Assembly: GCA_017624955.1 (NCBI GenBank)
Contig: JAGAMA010000001.1
Coordinates: 79,463 to 143,462 of the forward strand
Reading direction: 5' to 3'
Source of the DNA: Alistipes sp.
GTDB taxonomy: Bacteria > Bacteroidota > Bacteroidia > Bacteroidales > Rikenellaceae
DNA length: 64,000 bases
This document shows positions 27,180 to 41,237 of the stretch, in pieces. The notes under the pieces are model-generated. The model worked only from the letters and a program-made list of their open reading frames with translations, did not search any database and was not told where the DNA came from. Positions within the stretch are counted from its first letter, which is position 1, and each line of letters begins with the position of its first letter. A program made the translations under genes and the position numbers.

Positions 27180-28010
27180 AAGTTTTTCTTTAGAAAAAGG
27201 GGCAGTGAGAAAAGGTGTCACAGGTGTCACAGGTGTCACGGGTGTCACGGGTGTCACGCCCTGTGACACTGTGACAGTGTGACACCCGAGGAATTAAAAT
27301 TAAAGGGCAGCTAAAGGCGACTAAAGGCAACTAAAGGCAACTAAAGGCGATTAACGCGCCCCCTTAGCAACCTTTAGCCCCCCTTACCACCCCTTCCTCC
27401 CCCCCCGCAACCGTAAGACTCCCCAAACCACCCGATAGGCATGTTCAATGATTGTACGATAGCGTGGCCGTGGTTTTACCCACCACACAACACGCTACCC
27501 TACACACTACATACGGCACAACACGACAGCCTACGCAATACGGCACCGACTTGTCGCGTAGTTACCCAAGGCAACCGTGCTTGCCGTAAGTCTAATAGGG
27601 AGAGCCGATAGCGAAGCCTATACACACCTAATATTTATAAATAATATTTATATATATTAGTTCTTATATAAGCACATGCAGCGCTATGCAACCAGGCAGC
27701 AGTGCTTGCTCACGACCGGACTCGGTGGTGAGCCGTAAGGAAGGCAAAAGTTCAATGGTTGTACTTTTTGTGTAGGCGACTGGAGGGAGCTGAAGGCGAC
27801 TAAAGGCGACTAAAGGGTGCTAAAGGTTACTAAAGGTTGCTAAAGGTTGCTAAAGGCGTTCTTTAATAACCCTTAGTCACCCTTAATAACCCTTAGTCTC
27901 CCTTAGTCTCCCTTTAATTCTTAATCCCAAGGTGTCACGGTGTCACGCTGTCACAGGGCGTGACACCTGTTACACCTGTGACACCTGTGACACCTGTGAC
28001 ACTTTCAACG
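27180..28010. repeat. Gene-free mirrored composite of 9-bp and 10-bp hairpin repeats around an AT-rich core
   Basis: Order: 9-bp aggtgtcac array folding on itself (27213-27288), 10-bp ctaaaggcaa array with inverted cccttagc arm (about 27300-27395), a core (about 27400-27775), a second 10-bp array with inverted arm (27778-27920), and a second 9-bp array (27929-28008). The order on one side mirrors the other. The core has an AT-rich palindromic patch (ctaatatttataaataatatt, near 27632) and a direct repeat gttcaatgRttgtac at 27441 and 27750. No protein gene, tRNA or known RNA family was recognised. Confidence 0.8.
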
Positions 28011-28039: not shown

Positions 28040-30736
28040 CTACTTCGGATCGCGGTCGTTACCGAGCAGCGCGACCCACACCACGCGCCTCTCCTGGTCG
28101 ATCTTGGTGATCCGTGCCCGCAACGGGGCTTTGGGGAGCAAAAAGCCGCCACCCAAGGCGCGATAACGCGTCATCAGCGCCACGGGGTCCTTCACGCGAA
28201 TAGAGGCATAATTAATGGTTTCGGAGAGTAAAATAATATACTCCTTGCCCGTCGTCGGATCCTTGCGGGCGTGCAGCGTAACATAAATCTCCTGCTTTGC
28301 AAGACGTTGCAGGGGATCGGGCAACGTGCGACGGATCGAGAGCTGATAACTCTCCTTCTCCTCATTCACACCGCTTACGATCACCTCCACGCGGTCGCCC
28401 GCCTTATAGCGCGTATTCCAATCCGAGCCGATAAGGCCCCAGCCCAACTCATGACGCGGAACAAAGCCCCACGCGCCACCATCCAAATTCACACCGTAGC
28501 CCTTCGTATAGCTGCGTTGAATCGTGCCCCACACGCGCGCTCCGATTTTCAACTCGACGGGTTCAGCCGTCGCAATCGGCTGCGGCTCGGGGGCCTCGGA
28601 GGGCTCCTCAGCAGGCGCTTCCTGCTCGGCAACGGCCTCGACAGGAGGTTGCACCTCGGCGACTGCGGCAGCGGCACGCTCGGTCGGTTTTTTCAACAAC
28701 AGATATTGGATCGAGGGATCGATCTTATCCACCTGCAAAAGGATGCGATCCCCCTTGGACGGCAGTGGCTCTTTCTCCCACACCTTACCCCTTGTCCACA
28801 GGCCCGTCAAGAATCCGCGGCAGCGCACCAACATACTGTTTACCGCTACGCGCACCACCTCAACCTCCACCTGCTCATCGGGCTGCAGATCACACACCTG
28901 ATCCCACATCGAATCGATGCGCACGCTACGCCCCATGCGTGCCACATCCGACACGGGATTGTAGTTCAAACACTTCAAGTCATAGAGCACCTCCCCGACC
29001 TGATAAAGTCCCACAAACGAAAAATCGTTATGCAGGCCGAAGTCGGTACGCGTCAGGGTTGCCGATGCCCCTTGGCAATCCAGCAACAGCGCACTATCGG
29101 TCACCTGACGGACCACACCGCGGTAGGAACACCCTACCTGCAGCGCCGGATGGGGCACACGCGGGATACCGGGGTGCAAACCGGCATTGGTCAGCACGAC
29201 AGGCATCGTGAAGCTCATTCCGAGCGCAATACACCTCTCCTCGGCAGGTTCGGCCTCGCCCTCGTCGGAGCTGCAACCCGTCTGCTGATAGTCGGCATAC
29301 CACGCCTGCAAAATATCCTTCAGGAAATAGTAGTAGTGGTAATCATCGTAGCGCAGGACATAGTTCGCGCCCTCCTCGGCTACCACCGTAAAGGTCGCCT
29401 CATCGCCCTCATGCAGCGGGTAGCGCTCCGTAGCAAGCGCCACACGGCTCACCCACATCACCTCGGGCGCGGAATCGATCACCTGCACCTGCATCCGATC
29501 GCCCACCTTGACCAACAATTTGGGATCCACCTTGCCAAAGGCGTAAAGATCCTTGCGCAGGCTTGCCTTTCGGCCGCCGGGGGTCTCGAGCAAGATACCC
29601 TTATCATTCATGGCCAACACCGTAGCATCCACCACCTCGGCATCCTCCACGGGCGACACGTCCCAAATCGACGGGAAGGCGATCTGTTCGTTACGATCGA
29701 TCGTGCGTAAATGTTCGAAGGCTTCGAGGCGTTTTGCGCCACACTGCCCGGCCGACAACGGAACGACAAACGCCGTTTCGTCGGGTTGCAAAATCGGGGT
29801 CATCGAGAAGCTGAAACGCTCCTTATCGGCATCGATACCGGTTATATAGGCCGTAAAGGTTTGGGTGCGATCAATATTCTTGCGCTTCGGGAAAATGGCT
29901 CGATCCTCGGGTCTGAACCACGCCCAGCCGACACATCCGCGATACGAGAGCACCGCCAAATTGATCGACTTAAAGAGGCGCACGATGTGGGTCTGCACGG
30001 CACTGCCAATCGCCACATTCAGCAACGAGAAATCGGCCTCGCGCTCGTTGGGAATCGGATAGGAGAACTGGATCATCGTACCCGTAGCGCCATAGGCCAA
30101 CGCACGCCAACGGCTTCCCACGGGATAGGCCTCGGCAAGGCTCTCCTTCCCCCACAACGACAACGGATACTCCTTCGTCGAGGCGATATAGCCACGATGG
30201 CCACGCCACTCCACCAAGATAGCAAGCGGGATGGGCAGGTCGCTCTTCACGACCGTGACGACCGCTTCGTTCCACTGCTTGAGGCCGACCTCCTCCAACG
30301 TGATGGTTCGCTCGGGAGCGGGATAGACCAAGTGCAGCTTTTGATTCTCCTTATCGGGCAACACGAGCAGCTCCTCATCGGCCATCAGGCGCAGCGTTTG
30401 ATCAAATCGAAGCACCTCGCGTTTCATGCGAAACTTACGATGCAGGAAGCGCGAAGCCATCGTATTGATCTGCTTGACGCGATCGTACGAATCCCGATAC
30501 ATCGGCATCGGCTGCGGATCCTCCTCCAGCTCCCAGGCCTGCGACTGATCGATCTCCACACGCTCCTGCTCCTGCTGCTGCTCCACGATCGGCTCGTCGA
30601 TCTGTATCACCGTTCCGACCTTCTCATGGATCTCCTGCACCGCGATCTGCTCCTGCAGGCCAAACGCCACATCAGCCGCCGAATTCGCACTTTTCGACTC
30701 GCCTCGGACAACGCCCCAAAACTCTTTGCTCTTCAT
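28040..30736 (-). CDS. Large multi-S1/OB-fold protein, last gene of the NACHT operon
   Basis: 898 residues with no enzyme motif. After a Gln/Glu-rich N-terminus (EQQQEQERVEI), at least five S1/OB-like modules can be picked out by their start-Gly-turn-GDR pattern, near residues 240-305, 362-430, 530-600, 620-680 and 728-800. The last is the clearest (GARVWGTIQRSYTKGYGVNL, then GWGFVPRHELG-like text and YKAGDRVEVIVSGVN). An Ala/Glu/Pro linker (about 685-725) precedes it. S1 modules usually bind RNA, so this may be an RNA-binding sensor or scaffold (inference). The start at 30736 leaves 1 base after the NACHT stop; an ATG 15 bases earlier would overlap it. Confidence 0.75.
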   Translation of the reverse strand: MKSKEFWGVVRGESKSANSAADVAFGLQEQIAVQEIHEKVGTVIQIDEPIVEQQQEQERVEIDQSQAWELEEDPQPMPMYRDSYDRVKQINTMASRFLHRKFRMKREVLRFDQTLRLMADEELLVLPDKENQKLHLVYPAPERTITLEEVGLKQWNEAVVTVVKSDLPIPLAILVEWRGHRGYIASTKEYPLSLWGKESLAEAYPVGSRWRALAYGATGTMIQFSYPIPNEREADFSLLNVAIGSAVQTHIVRLFKSINLAVLSYRGCVGWAWFRPEDRAIFPKRKNIDRTQTFTAYITGIDADKERFSFSMTPILQPDETAFVVPLSAGQCGAKRLEAFEHLRTIDRNEQIAFPSIWDVSPVEDAEVVDATVLAMNDKGILLETPGGRKASLRKDLYAFGKVDPKLLVKVGDRMQVQVIDSAPEVMWVSRVALATERYPLHEGDEATFTVVAEEGANYVLRYDDYHYYYFLKDILQAWYADYQQTGCSSDEGEAEPAEERCIALGMSFTMPVVLTNAGLHPGIPRVPHPALQVGCSYRGVVRQVTDSALLLDCQGASATLTRTDFGLHNDFSFVGLYQVGEVLYDLKCLNYNPVSDVARMGRSVRIDSMWDQVCDLQPDEQVEVEVVRVAVNSMLVRCRGFLTGLWTRGKVWEKEPLPSKGDRILLQVDKIDPSIQYLLLKKPTERAAAAVAEVQPPVEAVAEQEAPAEEPSEAPEPQPIATAEPVELKIGARVWGTIQRSYTKGYGVNLDGGAWGFVPRHELGWGLIGSDWNTRYKAGDRVEVIVSGVNEEKESYQLSIRRTLPDPLQRLAKQEIYVTLHARKDPTTGKEYIILLSETINYASIRVKDPVALMTRYRALGGGFLLPKAPLRARITKIDQERRVVWVALLGNDRDPK

Positions 30737-30737
30737 C

Positions 30738-33700
30738 CTATTCAAACTCATTTAAGGATTCAACCATCTCGTTCTTCGCGAACGATTTATTCGACGCTCC
30801 GCCTTGCCAATTTTTGGGAGGTGCAGATGGTACATACGACACATAATTCACGCGCTTGTTCTCGATCGCAAAGCGCGGCACATAACGGCAGCGATCGCCC
30901 ACCTTCAGGGCGTGGAACGAAGCCCACTTCCACGAGTTGGGATCGCCATACTCCTTCGACATGCGCATCGAAACACGCACGTTGGATAGCACATCGTGAC
31001 CAAGCAGGACGACAAAGCCGTTCTGATCGGTCGTTATCTGGTCAATCTCGGCCTGACGATAGGCCGACTCGATATAAGACACCCGCAGGGCCAACGGTCG
31101 ATTCTTATAGCGGACATTATTGTTGCGCGAGGGGAAGAACCACACCGAATCGTAGTACGAGGGGGTGTAGTCATCAGCCCCGTAATGGTAGTAGTAATCG
31201 ACATCCTTCGGGCAGGCCTCCTGATGGCGCATACTATCGGCGTACGACACCATGGGACGTATATAGGCATCCTGCTGACCATGTTTGACGGTCATCACCA
31301 GGCCGCGCAGGTAGCCCAACTTACGCGAAGGTCGATGCGGCTCGGGCAGGAGCGTCAGCTTGTGGTTATACTCCACCAACACCATATCGCCGCTGCGCAG
31401 CTCCCGACCCTTGGGCAGATCACCCGAAACGACCATCCGCCCGACTAAACGGGGATTTGAATCGGGCACATAGACCGCAGCAAGGGTTGCCGAGGCGTAC
31501 GACACCACACCCACCATCAGCCGCTGCTCGGGATTGTTCAGTTGCAGGTAGCGATCCAGGATCAGGTAGGAGCGACTCTTGGCCATAAAGAAGGTAACGA
31601 AACTCTCATCGAAGCGATCCACCTCCTTCAACTCGGCGATCAACAAATCACAAATCGAGGCGTGGTAACGCTTCGGCGTGGCCACATCGATCAAAGGCGT
31701 AATACGAGGTACGCCCACCTTCACGGGTCGGGTGCACGCCTCATCGACATAGAAATAGAGCGTACCCCGATCGTTCGGACGATGAATCGAGCCATCGGCA
31801 TCCACCGTACGCAACGTGCAGTAGTGCTCCTGCGCACAGGCAGCGAGCTGCACGGCAAAGGGCTGTTCAAACTGATCGAGACGATACCACAAGTGGTCGA
31901 TGCGGTCGGTCGGTCGAGGAATCAGAATCTCCCCTCGGCCGATCCAACGATACGGCAGCGCCGCCAGGCGATATTGGCGCGCCACGCTCTTCGCACTCTC
32001 GGCCTGCTCACGCAATCGATTCACCACCGGATGATGACTCCACAGCTCAAAGGTCAATCCCTCGGCCGTCATCCGCTTAATCGACTCCAACGGCTGATCC
32101 ATCGACACATGCAGCAACTCGTAATGCGCTTCCGAGGGTGTCGGCACACCATTCAGCGCGAAGATTCGGTCGTTAAAACGCACCTGCTGCGCGGCAAGGG
32201 CCTCCATAAAGGCCTCCTTCGACAGCCCCTTGACATTGGGTTGAATCAACCGCACGCTCTTTTGCTCACCGCGCACGAAGGGAATGGCCTCGTTTGCCTC
32301 CCCCACATACATCACACCACTCAACGGCAACGAGCCGAACGACTCCGGCAGCTCTCCCTCCAGCACCCACGCTGCACGATGGACATGGGATAAAATATGC
32401 ATAAAGCGGGTCGGGTGCTCCGCCTCGTGCAGGAAGAGCCGCGTATAATCGGCATACTTCGGTTGCTTGGGCAGCACCACCCAGACCGTCTTATCGTTAG
32501 CCTGGCAGCAGAGAGCCTGTGTCAGTTGATTGCGCAAACTGCGCATACCGCGACGAATACGCAGCTTCTCCACCTGCTTGCTGTCCGTTCCGAAGAAACT
32601 TACCACGCCCTCCAACGGAACGGCATCATAGTCGATGCGCTTGACCGACTGCAAGGTCAGGATCGAAAGCTGGTTATTGGGGATCATGTAGCGCCCCATC
32701 TCAAAGCGCAGGTAGCAATCCTTCACTTTGCAGCGGGCACCATGCAACAGCTGCTTCAAATTGCCCTTCTTCCAAGCCGTGATCCACTCCTCGGAGACGA
32801 CACGCAGCGTGTGGCTATGCTGATTCGAGATGGCAAAATGGTAGGGAATCTGTTGGGGCTGACCCTCGCCATAGAGCAACACCACGCCACACACAGGCAG
32901 CGTAACGGCCACCTGCGAACGGAACGTAAGTTCGATAAAGCCCTGCGTCTGGGGTGCGGACTGCTTCACCACAAAGCGGTTCTCGCCCACCGTGCACTGC
33001 AACTCCTCCAACTCGTTGTGCACCGTCTCGGTCAGCAGCAACAGGTTCTGCTTATCAAATCCTAAAACACTATATTTCAGTTGGTTGTTCTTGTCAATAA
33101 AGGCATAGGGCACATCTTTGTTGTTGGTAATACTCAACGTACCACTCATCTCAAGTTCACGCGCCACATTCTCCATCTCGACCTCGATGTAGGTCATACG
33201 GCGAATCTCATTCAGCAGACCGGCATAGCGCCCCTCCGTATCATGCTGATCGCCCAGCAGCACACGCGCACCTTTGAGGTGGGCTTTACTCGACTCCAAC
33301 CACGCAATCTGCCCTTTTTGGAACAGATGCAGGAAGCGGGCATCGGATGCTTCATCCACCGCCAGGCGCTGCCACTCGTAATCGATCCCGTAACGAGCAC
33401 CATTTTCGAGTACGCAGATAATCTTACCGCGTTGCGGCAATACCGTTTCACGCGGGCAGTGCACCTCCAATACGCGCCCCGCGCCATCGGCCATGCGCAC
33501 ACGACTGATCTTGCCTGCGCCCAAGCCGGCAAGGGTAAATTTGCGCTGCTCCAACGTGCGCGACAAGACCTTATTCGTACCAAGGCGCAAAACCTTTTCA
33601 TCCGCCCAACCCAAGATTGTATAGGGGATAGCTATCTGCGTTTCACGCTGTGCGGCATCGACACGGCTCAAGGTCACACGGCGGAAAAGTTCGGGCGAGT

Positions 33701-36700
33701 GATAATAGGGCGTACGCACCTCACAATCGGGCAACACACCCACCCCGTCGGCGCCGACCAACAAGCAACGACCATGCACATTGGGCAGGGGATCATCCGC
33801 CTGCAGACGCAAGGTCAGGGTGCGATGCGGCTCATAAAGGGTACGCGACGGTTGCTGCACAAAGCGGCAGGCAATCTCTCCGATTTGCAATGCGCGCTGA
33901 TTTTTATACCAACCATACACCCGATAGGCCTGTGTTTCATTGGTCAAGACAATACGCAAACCATCATCCAGGTATCGTTCGGCCACATAGGGCAACGGCT
34001 CAACCTCGCCTTCGGCCATCAACTCGCCTTCGAGCGGCAGGGTTGTATGCTCCTCAACCGCCTCCAGCCAATAGGTCGAAGTGCGCTCATAGGTCATCTG
34101 ATCACGCACGACCTCATAGCGCAACACCGCATCGTCCGCACCGCGGAACAGCCACGCCGATTTGTCGAAATCGCCTTGCAGGTCGGGAATCGAGATCGTA
34201 AAGGAGCGGAAGTCGCGCGACAGAATCCGATAGCGCACACCATCCGTCTCCTTCATCTCGGAGAATTGGTATTGACAATCGAGAATCGAGGGATCGAAGT
34301 GTTTTTGCTGAATCTCGGCAGGGATATACTGCAACGGGAAGAGGTCGAGAATGGCAATGGCAAATTCGGTCTTCGACTTTTCCCCTTCGGCCAAGCGATA
34401 GATACCCTTCCGATTCCACAAGAAGTCGGCCATCGGAGCCAGGTCATAGCACTGCCTGAAGAGGAAGAAACGAACCAACCGACGGCGCAACATCATCGGC
34501 ATCATCTCGATCAGCTCCTCCGAGAAGAGCAGCTCGGCCACCTGCGGATCCTGCTCCCAGCGACGCAACAATTTCGAGAGTTGCTGGGTGAAGAAGCCCG
34601 TCAGCAGCTTCGTTTGAAGGTGTTGGCGGATATAGGCCGTATTATCGGAATAGAGCAACAGCGTCTGGGCATCGGAGCGAACCTCGAGCCGTGCATCCTG
34701 CTCCATCTGCTCGAAGAAGGCGCGACGATCCTTCTCGGTCAGAGACTGGAACAGCATGCGCTTATAGAGGAAGAGCTCGCTGCTGTAGGTCTTAACCGTA
34801 CGCCCCGACTTGACCATCGGAAGCTGCTCAATGGCACGATTCAACAGCTCATAGAGCGCCTCATAATCGGTCGTCGTGAGCATCATCTCGCGGTAGAGCA
34901 AACGGGCCGCAACGAGATTGGGCACACCGATTCCATGCATGTTCCATGTCGGGTACAGATCGCGTTCCACCAGCCAGAAGCGCAACCAGAAGCGATCCAG
35001 CAACCGCTCGACGATGCGCTCCGAGAGGAGCATACCGAACATCGAGAAGAGCTGACGTACCATCGGAAGGCCCTCCTCATAGGTCGGCCTGCTCATTGCA
35101 TACGCGCGTGCATAATTCAGCACCAACGCCTCCACCAGATCGCGTGCCGTGAGTTTGCCTATAACGCTATACCCCGAGCGTTCGCTCTTCGTCAGCTCCT
35201 TCTGCAACGGAAGTCGTGCCACGAGGCGCGCGGCCAACGGCAGGAGCGGATTCATCGGCGGCACCTCACCCACGCGGACCTCCACATCGTATTTCTCCTC
35301 GGCAGAGCGTCGATAGATATGCATAAAGGCCGCATCGGGTAGTTGGGGCGTTTCGCCCAAGGCCAAGAGATCGCTCACAAAGCTCAGAATCGCTTTCCGC
35401 TTGTTGGTCACCAGCTTACCCAGCAGATCGACACACATCTGCAACATATCGTAGTGCTGCTCGAAGGCCGTGGCACTATCCACGACGATTTCGCGCAAGA
35501 GTTTCTCGGCTTCGGGAGCCTTTGCCGCATTAACCATCGCCTCGGCATAGCGCTGATGAAGTCGCTTGGCACAATAGAACTCCATGAACGAGTCGTGATA
35601 GAAACTCACGGTTTGTGTCACTTCATCGACCTTCAGAATCTGCAGACGGGAGAGCAACTGCACCAAATCGCTGGGCCCTTTACCACCGGTACATACATGG
35701 CACTTACGGACTACTTCCCGCTCGATTTGGCGACCGTAGATCTGACTATGCACAGCCAAATCGCCCAACATATTGACACAATCCTCGCGCAGGTCGATCG
35801 ATTGGCGCAGCTCGGGATCACGCGCCGTATTTTCATTCTCCAACACCTCGGCAAAGAATCGCATATAGAGCTCGCCTCGGCTGCTGATGCCGTGGGCATC
35901 GGCATTGGAGAGCACCTCGACGATCATCTTCAGGTGCATCGGATTGGTCGCCAGCTTGGTCAAATCGGCATCGTCATCGATCTTATCGCGGATGGCGCGT
36001 TGCCACTCGGGATGCTCGTCGCCATTCGGATTGCTTTGTGCCAGGAATTGGTCGATGAGCAGACTATTCAACGGAGCAACCTCATACTTGGCACACTCCG
36101 AAAAATGGTTGCTGACGCGCGCAAACTCCACGATACGCCCCGTGAAGAGGTAGTGGTTATTCGGGTATTGACGGACATAATCCAACAATGGGGTCAGCTC
36201 CATGCCCTGCTGCAACTCATTCAGACCATCGAACAGGAAGAGCACACGCCCCTGATCGACCAGCGACTGGAGGTAGTTACCGATTGCCGACTTAAGCTCT
36301 TCGCTATCGTACGAACGCTTCAGGCTGGTTACCGCCTCGAAGAGGTAATCGAAGATCTTCTTGTTGGGGCGCATCTCGCTCACGCGAATCAGCACGGGCA
36401 ACATCGCCAGATCCGAGAGTGAGTTTTCACGCCAATTGCAAGCCTCCTCGAGCAGGATGCGGTCGAGCATCGTACTCTTACCCGAACCCGAGCCACCGAG
36501 CACACAGCAACAGGCATTTTCGCTAATCACATCGCGCGGATGGAGCTCCGCCTCTGCCAAAACGACATTGTCGTTTACCTCCTCGCCATTATCATCCTCT
36601 TCGTCGTCATCCTCCTTATCGTCCTCTTTCCACTCGAGGAGCATACTCTCCACCTCGGCTACCAGCTGCTCCTTACGACGGGCTACCGCCTCCTCGATGT

Positions 36701-37478
36701 GCTCGACATAGGTTTCGCGCACATACTTCTCCGCCTCGGCCGTGAGATCTGTCTGCCGACGGGGCGACAGTGTTGTCGTAGGAGCTGTGCCCACCAACGC
36801 CTGCAGGGGATCGTACCAATAATCCACTATCGCCAAGAAGACCGAAAGCAGACAACGATAGACTGCGGACTGATTTTGTTCCAAAATTACAAAGCCATGG
36901 TCTTTGATATTACGCGACTCGACACTAACTTTTACAGCCGATTTTAGCTCTTTTTTGGAGGGATCAACAGCCCCTCTTCGACCCTCAATGGCAGGCAACG
37001 CAATATACTTCAAATCCCCATAAGCTGCTACCAATTGGCCATTGAGCAGCGGGGCCAGAGTCAGTTTGTTGCCATCCACACCGGGCACTCGTTTCGTACC
37101 CTCAAGACAAGCGCACTCCTCACCGTCAATCACCATCTTCCGATCGGCATAGAGTGCCTTATAAAGGCATCGCAGAAACGACTCCAACGTATCAGGAATA
37201 GCATCCACCGTGGTGTCCGACATCAAATTATTCCAAAAAGCCTCATCGCGAAAAGAGGGAACTTTACCTTGAACCTCAAGGCGTTGATCAATACACCAAT
37301 GCCTGAATCGAGCCAAAAGATCCAACAAATCCTCCACGGCGTGATCCAAACACCGATCATAAGATTCCAACCTGATTGGCATACGATCATCTTCAAACAA
37401 AAGGAACAGTTTCTTCTGCGACAACTCTTTATAGAGGTCACAGATCTCTTGTAGTTCTTGGGGTGTAGGTCGTTTCAT
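30738..37478 (-). CDS. Giant NACHT (STAND) NTPase with about 1,600-residue C-terminal extension
   Basis: 2,246 residues. Residues 1-275 form a novel N-terminal region, and about 278-302 is a strongly acidic linker (EDDKEDDDEEDDNGEE). The NACHT ATPase follows, with Walker A GGSGSGKST at 328-336, Walker B with the NACHT-type FLFDGLNEL (Asp near 417) and the sensor arginine in YLFTGRIVEF. The winged-helix end motif FYHDSFMEFYCAKRL lies near 625. Residues about 650-1000 are helical; about 1000-2246 are beta-rich with Gly/Asp-turn patterns resembling OB modules. The ATG at 37478 is preferred over a TTG at 37511. Bacterial NACHT proteins are known antiphage sensors. The N-terminal coding part is visibly AT-richer than the rest. 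Confidence 0.85.
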   Translation of the reverse strand: MKRPTPQELQEICDLYKELSQKKLFLLFEDDRMPIRLESYDRCLDHAVEDLLDLLARFRHWCIDQRLEVQGKVPSFRDEAFWNNLMSDTTVDAIPDTLESFLRCLYKALYADRKMVIDGEECACLEGTKRVPGVDGNKLTLAPLLNGQLVAAYGDLKYIALPAIEGRRGAVDPSKKELKSAVKVSVESRNIKDHGFVILEQNQSAVYRCLLSVFLAIVDYWYDPLQALVGTAPTTTLSPRRQTDLTAEAEKYVRETYVEHIEEAVARRKEQLVAEVESMLLEWKEDDKEDDDEEDDNGEEVNDNVVLAEAELHPRDVISENACCCVLGGSGSGKSTMLDRILLEEACNWRENSLSDLAMLPVLIRVSEMRPNKKIFDYLFEAVTSLKRSYDSEELKSAIGNYLQSLVDQGRVLFLFDGLNELQQGMELTPLLDYVRQYPNNHYLFTGRIVEFARVSNHFSECAKYEVAPLNSLLIDQFLAQSNPNGDEHPEWQRAIRDKIDDDADLTKLATNPMHLKMIVEVLSNADAHGISSRGELYMRFFAEVLENENTARDPELRQSIDLREDCVNMLGDLAVHSQIYGRQIEREVVRKCHVCTGGKGPSDLVQLLSRLQILKVDEVTQTVSFYHDSFMEFYCAKRLHQRYAEAMVNAAKAPEAEKLLREIVVDSATAFEQHYDMLQMCVDLLGKLVTNKRKAILSFVSDLLALGETPQLPDAAFMHIYRRSAEEKYDVEVRVGEVPPMNPLLPLAARLVARLPLQKELTKSERSGYSVIGKLTARDLVEALVLNYARAYAMSRPTYEEGLPMVRQLFSMFGMLLSERIVERLLDRFWLRFWLVERDLYPTWNMHGIGVPNLVAARLLYREMMLTTTDYEALYELLNRAIEQLPMVKSGRTVKTYSSELFLYKRMLFQSLTEKDRRAFFEQMEQDARLEVRSDAQTLLLYSDNTAYIRQHLQTKLLTGFFTQQLSKLLRRWEQDPQVAELLFSEELIEMMPMMLRRRLVRFFLFRQCYDLAPMADFLWNRKGIYRLAEGEKSKTEFAIAILDLFPLQYIPAEIQQKHFDPSILDCQYQFSEMKETDGVRYRILSRDFRSFTISIPDLQGDFDKSAWLFRGADDAVLRYEVVRDQMTYERTSTYWLEAVEEHTTLPLEGELMAEGEVEPLPYVAERYLDDGLRIVLTNETQAYRVYGWYKNQRALQIGEIACRFVQQPSRTLYEPHRTLTLRLQADDPLPNVHGRCLLVGADGVGVLPDCEVRTPYYHSPELFRRVTLSRVDAAQRETQIAIPYTILGWADEKVLRLGTNKVLSRTLEQRKFTLAGLGAGKISRVRMADGAGRVLEVHCPRETVLPQRGKIICVLENGARYGIDYEWQRLAVDEASDARFLHLFQKGQIAWLESSKAHLKGARVLLGDQHDTEGRYAGLLNEIRRMTYIEVEMENVARELEMSGTLSITNNKDVPYAFIDKNNQLKYSVLGFDKQNLLLLTETVHNELEELQCTVGENRFVVKQSAPQTQGFIELTFRSQVAVTLPVCGVVLLYGEGQPQQIPYHFAISNQHSHTLRVVSEEWITAWKKGNLKQLLHGARCKVKDCYLRFEMGRYMIPNNQLSILTLQSVKRIDYDAVPLEGVVSFFGTDSKQVEKLRIRRGMRSLRNQLTQALCCQANDKTVWVVLPKQPKYADYTRLFLHEAEHPTRFMHILSHVHRAAWVLEGELPESFGSLPLSGVMYVGEANEAIPFVRGEQKSVRLIQPNVKGLSKEAFMEALAAQQVRFNDRIFALNGVPTPSEAHYELLHVSMDQPLESIKRMTAEGLTFELWSHHPVVNRLREQAESAKSVARQYRLAALPYRWIGRGEILIPRPTDRIDHLWYRLDQFEQPFAVQLAACAQEHYCTLRTVDADGSIHRPNDRGTLYFYVDEACTRPVKVGVPRITPLIDVATPKRYHASICDLLIAELKEVDRFDESFVTFFMAKSRSYLILDRYLQLNNPEQRLMVGVVSYASATLAAVYVPDSNPRLVGRMVVSGDLPKGRELRSGDMVLVEYNHKLTLLPEPHRPSRKLGYLRGLVMTVKHGQQDAYIRPMVSYADSMRHQEACPKDVDYYYHYGADDYTPSYYDSVWFFPSRNNNVRYKNRPLALRVSYIESAYRQAEIDQITTDQNGFVVLLGHDVLSNVRVSMRMSKEYGDPNSWKWASFHALKVGDRCRYVPRFAIENKRVNYVSYVPSAPPKNWQGGASNKSFAKNEMVESLNEFE

Positions 37479-37517
37479 CGGGTCAGTTATTTGACGGTAG
37501 GTAGTGATCAAAAAAAG

Positions 37518-38072
37518 TCAGTCGTTATCTCGTATAAAAAGGTGGGTCTGCCAATAGGGATCGGGCGTTTCACCCGGACGGGACAGCTTCGGGGCTGCTT
37601 CGCCCGCAAAGAGCGAAATGAAGGTAAAGGCGGGGGTACTCCCCTCCAGGATCAGTTGGCACTCATCGGTCGAAAACATACGCTCGGAAAGCACGGTACG
37701 CACCTCGCAACCATCGCGCAATTCGGTGCGAATCGTGGCGCGCTCCTCCTCGGTCAATGCCTCCTCGGCCACCACACGCGAAGTGCCGATCGGAGCATTC
37801 AACCGAAAGCTCAATCGCAGACGACCATCCGCCTCACTCGCTTGGCTAAATCGGTCGGGGTACTGTGCCACCAAACGGCTTACCGCCTCACGAGGCGAGC
37901 GGGCAAACGCGCCATCGAACTTCGAGCCGACACGCCGGCATTGCTCCTCGATACGGGACTCCTCATAGCCCCCTCGGCGCAACTCCTCAAGCAACGCTTC
38001 GTCGGGTTGCTCGAAATGCGACAGGCTATGAAACAAGGCCCACAGCGGATAGTGGATCGAGATCGGCTCCAT
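37518..38072 (-). CDS. Uncharacterised 184-residue protein of the NACHT operon
   Basis: I do not recognise a family. The sequence is soluble with no signal peptide or TM segment. It has an acidic-helical first half (DEALLEELRRGGYEESRIEEQ) and a beta-strand-rich second half (LRLSFRLNAP, CQLILEGSTPAFTFISLFAG). It starts one base after the stop of the membrane protein gene and ends 39 bases before the NACHT start, so it is locked into the operon. It may be an adaptor, inhibitor or effector partner; nothing in the sequence decides among these. Confidence 0.7.
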   Translation of the reverse strand: MEPISIHYPLWALFHSLSHFEQPDEALLEELRRGGYEESRIEEQCRRVGSKFDGAFARSPREAVSRLVAQYPDRFSQASEADGRLRLSFRLNAPIGTSRVVAEEALTEEERATIRTELRDGCEVRTVLSERMFSTDECQLILEGSTPAFTFISLFAGEAAPKLSRPGETPDPYWQTHLFIRDND

Positions 38073-38073
38073 G

Positions 38074-39336
38074 TTAAACCTTGCGGTGACGATTGTGATA
38101 TATAATGTAGAGAATCAGACTGAAGGCGATAAGGGCCAAACCGACGGCAATGGCACGATACCAGCACGAACCGGTTTCGATGCCACCTGCTTCCGTCAGG
38201 AGCGAAGTGCCGTCATAGAGGGTCGAGGCAAGAGTCAGGAAGGTCAAGAGCACAATCACGCGATTCAATTTGCGCTCCGATACCTGGTTGCGCATCTGCT
38301 CCACCTGCTCGATATGTTGATGCAGCGCCTGGCGCTCACGCTCCATACCCATACCTCGGTCGATTGCCTCATAGAGGGTCTGCGGCAGGAAGTTGTAGGA
38401 GATGTTTGAGAAGTTGTAATAGTGTTCCAGTTCACGAATATCGTACATCAACTCCTCGATATTGACCCCCTTACTGCGGAAGCGGCGATTGAAGTAGAAA
38501 AGCAGCGTTTTTTGGTAGAGCACATGGATATAGATCATCCGGAAATAGCTCTCGCGCCAGGTCCACGAATCGACGGCCGTAAGTTTGGTTGAAAGCATCG
38601 TCATCGTATCGAAGAGGGCCAAAGCGCGCCAGTTGCGGAAAACCGCAATTTTGTGTTGTTTGAGCAAGGATTGCAAATAGGCCGGGTCGGGGGAGTTGCG
38701 ATCCTCGCTATTATCCACACACCCGATCGGCGCCAATGCTCCCAACTCATAGAGCAGCGAGTCGTTCGAATCCTTCACCTCGAAGAGCTGAAAGAGTTTC
38801 AGTTTATTTCCCGTATCCGTCAGGTCGGTATAGTTGCCCTTGTGCTCGGGAGTCGTACACAAAGCAAGCAGCGGCTGAAGCGTGGCGAGATACTCCGAAG
38901 CCTGCAACCGATCATAGCCATTCACCTCACGCAACCGCCCGAAGGCCTCGGTCCAGCCATTCAGATCGGCTCCTGCGGCATCTATTTCAAGGGCAAAGAG
39001 CACAATACCGAGCGGAAGAAAGTAGAGATGAATCCGCTCAAAGTCAAACAAAAAGTCACCCGCAGCCAATGTCACGGAGCACCTTTTCCCCACCTCCGCC
39101 ACCAAGTGGGCGATCTGCTGACCCTTGGATGCAGGGAGCTGTTTGCGCGGCAAGATGGAATCGACAAAACTCTCGTAGTAGAAACGGCACGAATTGCGAT
39201 AGGCACTATCGTCCACCGCTTTGGACACCCAACCGGCATCGGTTGCCAGCAACGATTCGGGAGTCTGCGCCGTCACCAAGTGACCGCAGAGAAAACCATG
39301 CGCATAAGAGGCTGTAATCGAAGTCATAACATCCAT
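38074..39336 (-). CDS. CorA-like membrane protein (soluble N-domain, two C-terminal TM helices)
   Basis: 420 residues. A soluble domain of about 310 residues is followed by a long charged helix (MERERQALHQHIEQVEQMRNQ). Two C-terminal TM helices lie at about 357-374 and 392-413, joined by a short loop, with a basic tail NRHRKV. This is the topology of CorA/ZntB channels, but the GMN motif at the end of TM1 is absent (YDGTSLL occupies the loop), so metal transport is doubtful. In a NACHT operon it is a plausible membrane effector. First gene of the operon; the leader upstream is unusual. Confidence 0.65.
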   Translation of the reverse strand: MDVMTSITASYAHGFLCGHLVTAQTPESLLATDAGWVSKAVDDSAYRNSCRFYYESFVDSILPRKQLPASKGQQIAHLVAEVGKRCSVTLAAGDFLFDFERIHLYFLPLGIVLFALEIDAAGADLNGWTEAFGRLREVNGYDRLQASEYLATLQPLLALCTTPEHKGNYTDLTDTGNKLKLFQLFEVKDSNDSLLYELGALAPIGCVDNSEDRNSPDPAYLQSLLKQHKIAVFRNWRALALFDTMTMLSTKLTAVDSWTWRESYFRMIYIHVLYQKTLLFYFNRRFRSKGVNIEELMYDIRELEHYYNFSNISYNFLPQTLYEAIDRGMGMERERQALHQHIEQVEQMRNQVSERKLNRVIVLLTFLTLASTLYDGTSLLTEAGGIETGSCWYRAIAVGLALIAFSLILYIIYHNRHRKV

Positions 39337-39375
39337 AATTTCAAGTTAAGCAACCGCCCACCAAAGAATAAAATC

Positions 39376-39412
39376 CTCTACACTCCACAGCTTGCAGCCT
39401 TGAGTCGTAGAG
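39376..39412 (-). promoter_or_regulatory. Leader hairpin ahead of the NACHT operon (possible attenuator)
   Basis: On the minus strand ctctacgactc pairs with gagtgtagag (10 bp with one bulge), followed by gattttattcttt, a weak U-rich tract. It lies between the mini-ORF and the first gene, the position expected for a transcription attenuator. Function is inferred only from position and shape. Confidence 0.4.
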
Positions 39413-39426
39413 AACGTAAGCCATAC

Positions 39427-39459
39427 TTATTCGTTGTGGCCGATCTTCGCGAAAGACAT
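39427..39459 (-). CDS. Leader mini-ORF MSFAKIGHNE, remnant of a meaB 5' end
   Basis: Ten codons then TAA, 14-20 bases after the predicted transcription start of the NACHT operon. The peptide matches the first residues of MeaB (MSFTKINHYE), and the DNA around it is an inverted copy of the meaB promoter and start. It may be a duplication remnant or a translated leader peptide. Whether it is translated is unknown. Confidence 0.4.
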   Translation of the reverse strand: MSFAKIGHNE

Positions 39460-39503
39460 CGGATTGCTTTTGCTACACAAAAATAGCAAAAGAAGTTGAA
39501 AGT
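39430..39503 (-). repeat. Inverted copy of the meaB promoter and first ten codons
   Basis: The reverse complement of this segment aligns with 41164-41237 over about 74 positions with eight mismatches and a two-base gap. The match covers the promoter, palindrome, spacer and start codons. The two copies face each other across the 1.4-kb glutamate decarboxylase gene. Confidence 0.85.
39468..39491 (-). promoter_or_regulatory. Predicted promoter/operator of the NACHT operon
   Basis: The minus strand carries the -7 box TATTTTTG (39478-39485), embedded in an 8-bp inverted repeat ttttgcta/tagcaaaa. The same box and palindrome lie at 41174-41197 before meaB, so the two operons may share a regulator. 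Confidence 0.55.
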
Positions 39504-41072: not shown

Positions 41073-41168
41073 CGGAGGCTAAAGGCTATTAAAGGCAGCT
41101 AAAGGCGTGAAGGGTTTTTCCCTTTGCGCCTTTTTTGCCCTTTTCGCCCTTTTCTCTTTCGCCTTTCA
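41073..41168. repeat. 10-bp ctaaaggc hairpin array downstream of gadB
   Basis: Left units (ggaggctaaa, ggctattaaa, ggcagctaaa), a tttttccc turn, then pyrimidine-rich inverted units (gcccttttc). It begins right after the gadB stop and ends at the meaB promoter, a position fitting a terminator-like hairpin. Confidence 0.75.
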
Positions 41169-41237
41169 ACTTCTTTTGCTATTTTTGCATAGCAAAAAAG
41201 CAATACTATGTCTTTCACGAAGATCAACCACTACGAA
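41164..41237 (+). repeat. meaB promoter/start segment duplicated in inverted orientation at 39430-39503
   Basis: Source or sister copy of the leader segment of the NACHT operon. It includes the meaB start codon and ten codons. Confidence 0.85.
41174..41197 (+). promoter_or_regulatory. Predicted promoter/operator of the meaB operon
   Basis: The -7 box TATTTTTG (41180-41187) lies inside a perfect 9-bp inverted repeat, ttttgctat/atagcaaaa with a 6-nt spacer. This looks like a repressor site overlapping the promoter. The transcription start would be near 41194, 14 bases before the ATG. Confidence 0.6.

Follow-up and report, generated by a model that had tools for sequence, protein, structure and literature searches.

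Both STAND sensors and CorA effectors have precedents in bacterial defence. As set out in the accessible part of the report on the type III CRISPR system of B. fragilis, SAM-AMP binds CorA and was proposed as its opener; type III CRISPR CorA was toxic, and immunity was obtained only with the partner NrN (PMC10600005). A messenger-degrading enzyme (NrN, DEDD or SAM-AMP lyase) accompanies the majority of CRISPR CorA genes, and the membrane action of these effectors is left open in the accessible text of the two reports (PMC10600005, PMC11229360). Ternary conflict systems are described, again in the accessible text, as built on a modular core whose parts can be exchanged, and S1 OB folds are noted in certain TERNS3 effector modules; 'CorA' as a whole word is absent from that text (Kaur, Aravind; PMC7159879, PMC8195603). 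Among the matches listed in a literature search that left subscription journals mostly uncovered, no title or abstract opening named the four-gene set, or a STAND protein and a CorA protein joined by a small partner outside CRISPR. What appears new in the locus presented here is this linkage of a STAND protein, as putative sensor, with a CorA-like candidate effector through a small partner, outside CRISPR.

The window, the whole stretch of DNA that was analysed, comprises 64,000 nt of Alistipes sp. (Rikenellaceae; GCA_017624955.1, contig JAGAMA010000001.1, positions 79,463-143,462, forward strand). An operon of four minus-strand genes, encoding a CorA-like protein, a small protein, a NACHT protein and an S1 protein, was located in it (Table 1). 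Gaps of 1 base (38073), 39 bases (37479-37517) and 1 base (30737) separate the genes, and these coordinates agree with those of the sequence-only reading. That reading had also placed the operon under a single promoter; a TAnnTTTG box was found on the minus strand at 39485, 5' of the operon, and a good -33 partner was missing by eye.

Table 1. Features of the four-gene operon and of adjacent DNA, in positions of the window
Feature	Position	Strand	Basis
Gene 1, CorA-like, 420 aa	38074-39336	-	PADLOC CorA, membrane segment, no GMN
Gene 2, 184 aa, unnamed small family	37518-38072	-	Alignment of 11 sequences
Gene 3, NACHT/STAND NTPase, 2246 aa	30738-37478	-	Pfam and motifs
Gene 4, S1-domain protein, 898 aa	28040-30736	-	Pfam S1
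Degenerate copy of meaB 5' region, upstream of gene 1	39442..39502	-	Sequence comparison
Tract alike to G636, gene 2 end through gene 3 N-terminus, ~0.8 kb	36930..37709	-	Third codon positions
RNxxxH, residues 189-194, N-terminal domain of gene 3	36897..36914	-	Kept in G636
NACHT domain of gene 3, about residues 323-479	36042..36512	-	Pfam PF05729
Possible S1/CSD-like module of gene 3, residues about 2027-2149	31032..31400	-	Likeness to G077 NACHT C-terminus
Confident S1 domain of gene 4, residues 729-802	28331..28552	-	Pfam E 5e-14

Gene 1 matched the CorA models of PADLOC with E-values of 1.5e-9 and 1.5e-7; these models presumably derive from CRISPR loci. The GMN motif defines the CorA Mg2+ transporter family, and from such a transporter both this motif and a Pfam CorA match would be expected. 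Gene 1 has neither, GMN being absent near its C-terminal membrane segment, and its earlier description as a CorA-like protein without GMN was thus borne out. By hydropathy, its sole C-terminal membrane segment above threshold spans residues 395-413 and is preceded by a weaker one; two such segments were obtained for seven of the nine CorA proteins computed. A PDB search with CorA alignments returned nothing usable.

Like type III CRISPR CorA in the accessible description (PMC10600005), gene 1 has a C-terminal CorA-type half after a large N-terminal part, and a constant neighbour gene. Unlike there, the partner belongs to an unrelated small family, and the signalling protein nearby is of STAND or TPR-SpoIIE type. 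Gene 2 matched no NrN, DEDD or SAM-AMP lyase family, no cas gene was recognised among the four operon genes and 8 flanking genes, and the genome itself (93.5% complete) gave no match to the Cas10 palm (PF22335). The locus resembles ternary conflict systems in having a modular core with interchangeable parts; unlike the MoxR-vWA ternary systems, it gave no Pfam match to MoxR or vWA in its four proteins.

Using an alignment of two CorA proteins as query, matches were obtained in 14 of 393 order genomes. Clear homologues beyond the window numbered seven in this collection (E 1e-23 to 1e-86), and a phylum sample of 218 genomes added one (G696). Ten loci were accepted as clear: the window, G636, G301, G199, G170, G026, G304, G157, G344 and G696. 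A gene 2 homologue lies directly 3' of the CorA gene, overlapping it or at most 3 bases away, at all ten, so that gene 2, formerly labelled an orphan, is instead a constant partner. Six weak CorA matches (E 0.0016-0.009; G005, G042, G267, G282, G297 and G366) were excluded from this set. Since none of them had a gene 2 in the stretches examined (~3 kb for G005, G267 and G282), a distant CorA-like protein can occur without gene 2; the neighbours of the G366 match were housekeeping-like by eye. Within the phylum sample, gene 2 was found in three genomes, namely the window's own, G696 and G805. The G805 homologue (L079:4675-5289) has no adjacent CorA gene and lies next to a 603-aa gene for which Pfam gave no match.

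All 11 aligned gene 2 sequences keep an HF near the N-terminus, an S-K/R and a C-terminal F-x-G. No family match above noise was obtained in Pfam, PADLOC or NCBIfam. A match to EmrA chains in the PDB sequence search (E 0.006) was judged noise, and the predicted structure was poor (pLDDT 50) and unusable. The motif pattern, with the helix-then-strand order of that model, gave the idea that gene 2 might be a BECR-type RNase, for which Pfam and PDB sequence searches gave no support. Pairwise identities of CorA and gene 2 were correlated (Mantel r 0.50; 35 of 5000 permutations as high), a result that co-evolution and shared species history could both produce. The TPR-SpoIIE loci group together in the CorA tree and not in the gene 2 tree, where G199 falls among them, as it does not in the CorA tree.

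While the pair is constant, its signalling neighbour changes: giant NACHT plus S1 at two loci (window and G636), NACHT plus GDPD at two, TPR-SpoIIE at five and none recognised at one. At G199, the CorA gene and gene 2 are followed by a SAM-domain NACHT (PADLOC Avs2, 1.8e-14) and GDPD, and at G301 the pair is convergent to an opposite-strand NACHT gene (Pfam 6e-5, below cut-off) with GDPD. The association of a NACHT protein with a CorA-like protein, claimed earlier for the window, recurs at G636, G199 and G301. TPR-SpoIIE genes lie directly upstream of the pair at G170, G026, G304, G157 and G344, the CorA part being fused to the TPR-SpoIIE protein at G026. An nSTAND1-WD40 gene is found further upstream at G026 and G304, past an opposite-strand gene in the latter, and at G344 a WD40 gene truncated at the end of the contig lies two genes away. 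No signalling protein was recognised among the three neighbours scanned at G696. Because the window NACHT has little in common with the G199 and G301 NACHT proteins past the P-loop, the sensors look exchanged. At these two loci, the GDPD phosphodiesterase gene is directly 3' of the NACHT gene (L063:10136-11002 and L062:4096-4926).

Assignment of gene 3 to the NACHT-class STAND NTPases was upheld by Pfam (E 2e-10) and by the motifs read in the sequence: Walker A (GGSGSGKST), Walker B (FLFDGLNEL) and a downstream winged-helix end motif (HDSFMEFYCA), which aligns with HESYLEFFTA of another NACHT protein. Like the bacterial NACHT/Avs antiphage proteins, it combines a NACHT STAND NTPase with a long tail, and the G199 sensor matches PADLOC Avs2; unlike Avs, the window NACHT gave no match to the PADLOC Avs models, and the presumed effector is encoded in separate conserved genes. 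Two weak matches to P-loop models of PADLOC were recorded (mad3, E 0.007; mad8, 0.04). A stand-alone NACHT protein of G077 (L005:1523-4933; Pfam NACHT 8e-9) has a NACHT core in common with gene 3 (blastp E 4e-15). The C-termini of the two proteins are also alike (search E 7e-5; blastp E 0.002), at an hhalign probability of only 0.1%. This C-terminal module of gene 3 is possibly S1/CSD-like, a name taken from a sub-threshold Pfam match (S1CSD-TOTE-1, E 0.039) of the G077 copy; the window copy had no Pfam match.

Gene 4 had been described as a multi-S1 protein. One S1 domain is confident, whereas a second, at residues 367-421, is weak, so that the description is upheld only in part. If translation started at an in-frame ATG at 30751, gene 4 would overlap the stop codon of the NACHT gene. 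Identity with 30S ribosomal protein S1 was rejected, the best NCBIfam match scoring 51 bits against an equivalog cut-off of 368. Matches to gene 4 were obtained in 74 of 268 family genomes: its own, G636 and 72 at the C-terminal S1 part only. G636 holds the one full-length relative. From the 72 C-terminal matches, 18 loci were taken as the S1 reference set, and the G654 locus was put aside.

Co-occurrence of the four genes outside the strain, named beforehand in the sequence-only reading as a refutation test, was found in G636, a Rikenellaceae MAG of the same genus carrying a second full operon in the same order and on the same strand; this rules out a chance cluster. For the CorA pair, a contig scan restricted to two peptide patterns returned solely the G636 record. 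Apart from the self-match, a search with the NACHT protein alone yielded two weak matches, both to its tail, among 393 order genomes and no match in 150 family genomes; once the two NACHT proteins were aligned and used together as query, the gene was detected in 2 of 268 family genomes, the window's own and G636. By tblastn (1e-6), the four proteins were absent around meaB in nine of nine related genomes, in eight of which meaB and the epimerase-type (glyoxalase-family) gene are about 0.24-2 kb apart; in the ninth, G507, the latter gene lies off the stretch examined. The operon is thus accessory, and a fixed core-genome locus, the other outcome named in advance, was ruled out by these counts. 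G532, G502 and G507 are closer to the window than G636 by MeaB identity, yet have no operon beside meaB.

The operon sits at one orthologous site in the two species. In G636, gene 1 begins 18 bases past meaB; in the window, the GAD-meaB block is inverted. Likeness to the meaB start region is present at 39442-39502 and 41163-41225 and marks the rearranged block. The degenerate copy upstream of gene 1 is probably a scar of this inversion and perhaps the promoter region of the operon. Phage, plasmid and IMG/VR collections gave no match to the NACHT and CorA proteins, and recent phage or plasmid cargo was rejected at the sensitivity of each search. As, in addition, all eight flanking genes scanned were metabolic, there is no sign of mobile-element cargo or of a defence island.

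Between the window and G636, three flanking genes share 85-93% DNA identity, and the operon proteins 60% (CorA), 63% (gene 2), 45% (NACHT) and 30% (S1) protein identity. Third positions of codons for identical residues agree at 0.86-0.94 from gene 2 codon ~122 to gene 3 codon 183 against 0.29-0.77 in each of the remaining 60-codon blocks of the operon, so that the tract listed in Table 1 looks like a recent recombination. The S1 protein (20-45% of residues shared per 60-codon block) and the NACHT tail from residue 1053 (17-55%) are the most divergent parts; the NACHT middle (549-987) is also low, at 33-48% per block. This pattern would fit a variable sensor, and relaxed constraint on the S1 protein and the NACHT tail is an alternative explanation of it.

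Our working interpretation, to which we give slightly less than an even chance, is an accessory NLR-like conflict system, probably of the abortive-infection type, in which gene 2 relays the action of the STAND sensor to a CorA-like membrane effector. Because the pair is constant and its signalling neighbour changes, genes 1 and 2 are taken as the output, a two-gene effector cassette. Gene 1 would form a CorA-like membrane channel, probably oligomeric, and gene 2 would be its dedicated small partner, gating it or coupling it to the sensor. Gene 3 would be the STAND switch, its fast-diverging tail sensing an infection cue with help from the S1 protein. The S1 protein, and possibly the NACHT tail as well, would make an RNA or ribonucleoprotein state the most likely cue. 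On NTP-driven oligomerisation, gene 3 would pass a signal from its N-terminal domain to gene 2 and on to the CorA-like channel, which would perturb the membrane and stop growth; we infer phage defence as the role. Against a conflict system stand the occurrence of the four-gene form at only two loci, the TPR-SpoIIE proteins, not specific to defence, at half of the pairs, the metabolic flanks, the lack of a phage or plasmid match, the G805 gene 2 without CorA, the differing trees of gene 2 and CorA, the unusable gene 2 model, and the weak HEPN and S1/CSD assignments.

Several of these points would suit a stress or ion-homeostasis switch unrelated to defence, in which a CorA-like transporter is controlled by signalling ATPases and SpoIIE phosphatases and the S1 protein tunes translation. 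Metabolic neighbours and TPR-SpoIIE partners agree with such a switch; its rarity, its presence or absence at one site, the missing GMN motif and the strong divergence of sensor and S1 protein relative to nearby core genes make it unlikely. We consider it distinctly unlikely that a small nucleotide, made or broken by gene 2, opens the CorA-like channel as a second messenger. Gene 2 does hold the place of the CRISPR messenger-degrading enzyme at 10/10 loci, but it has no enzyme family match, Pfam detected no cyclase or nucleotidyltransferase in the four proteins, and the genome lacks a Cas10 palm match.

More doubtful still is a killer role for the NACHT N-terminal domain, as a HEPN-type RNase freed on oligomerisation, with CorA and gene 2 only modulating it, for example by membrane anchoring. 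HEPN nucleases carry an R-X4-6-H motif within an all-helical domain. R189-N190-x3-H194 of gene 3 is common to the window and G636, RNxYxGH precedes the NACHT domain in the G199 and G301 proteins, and from these residues the RNxxxH might be read as HEPN-like. Pfam and PDB sequence searches gave no HEPN match, however; the stand-alone G077 relative has only ~107 residues ahead of the P-loop, and no NACHT protein was recognised among the scanned neighbours at the five TPR-SpoIIE loci.

If the favoured conflict system is correct, NLR-like bacterial proteins would gain a membrane-channel output encoded in separate genes. A CorA effector would be separated from the CRISPR signal, and the trigger that opens the channel could be sought in a compact setting. 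In a broader form, which we hold to be rather unlikely, CorA with gene 2 would be a general plug-in membrane-effector cassette of Bacteroidota serving at least three kinds of signalling protein, gene 2 would found a new family of channel gates or messenger enzymes, and the four-gene form would be a CRISPR-independent NLR responding to the state of RNA, with a CorA channel as its means of killing.

A 794-bp element (27212-28005), in which no long ORF was listed, lies in the window between the epimerase-type gene and gene 4; its 184-nt imperfect inverted arms, 78% complementary, are made of 9- and 10-base tandem units. The meaB-epimerase site of G603 (L039:2640-4620) holds a ~2-kb insert, in which an AAA_25 protein is encoded between short-repeat arrays that are alike by eye, and the two are possibly related mobile elements.
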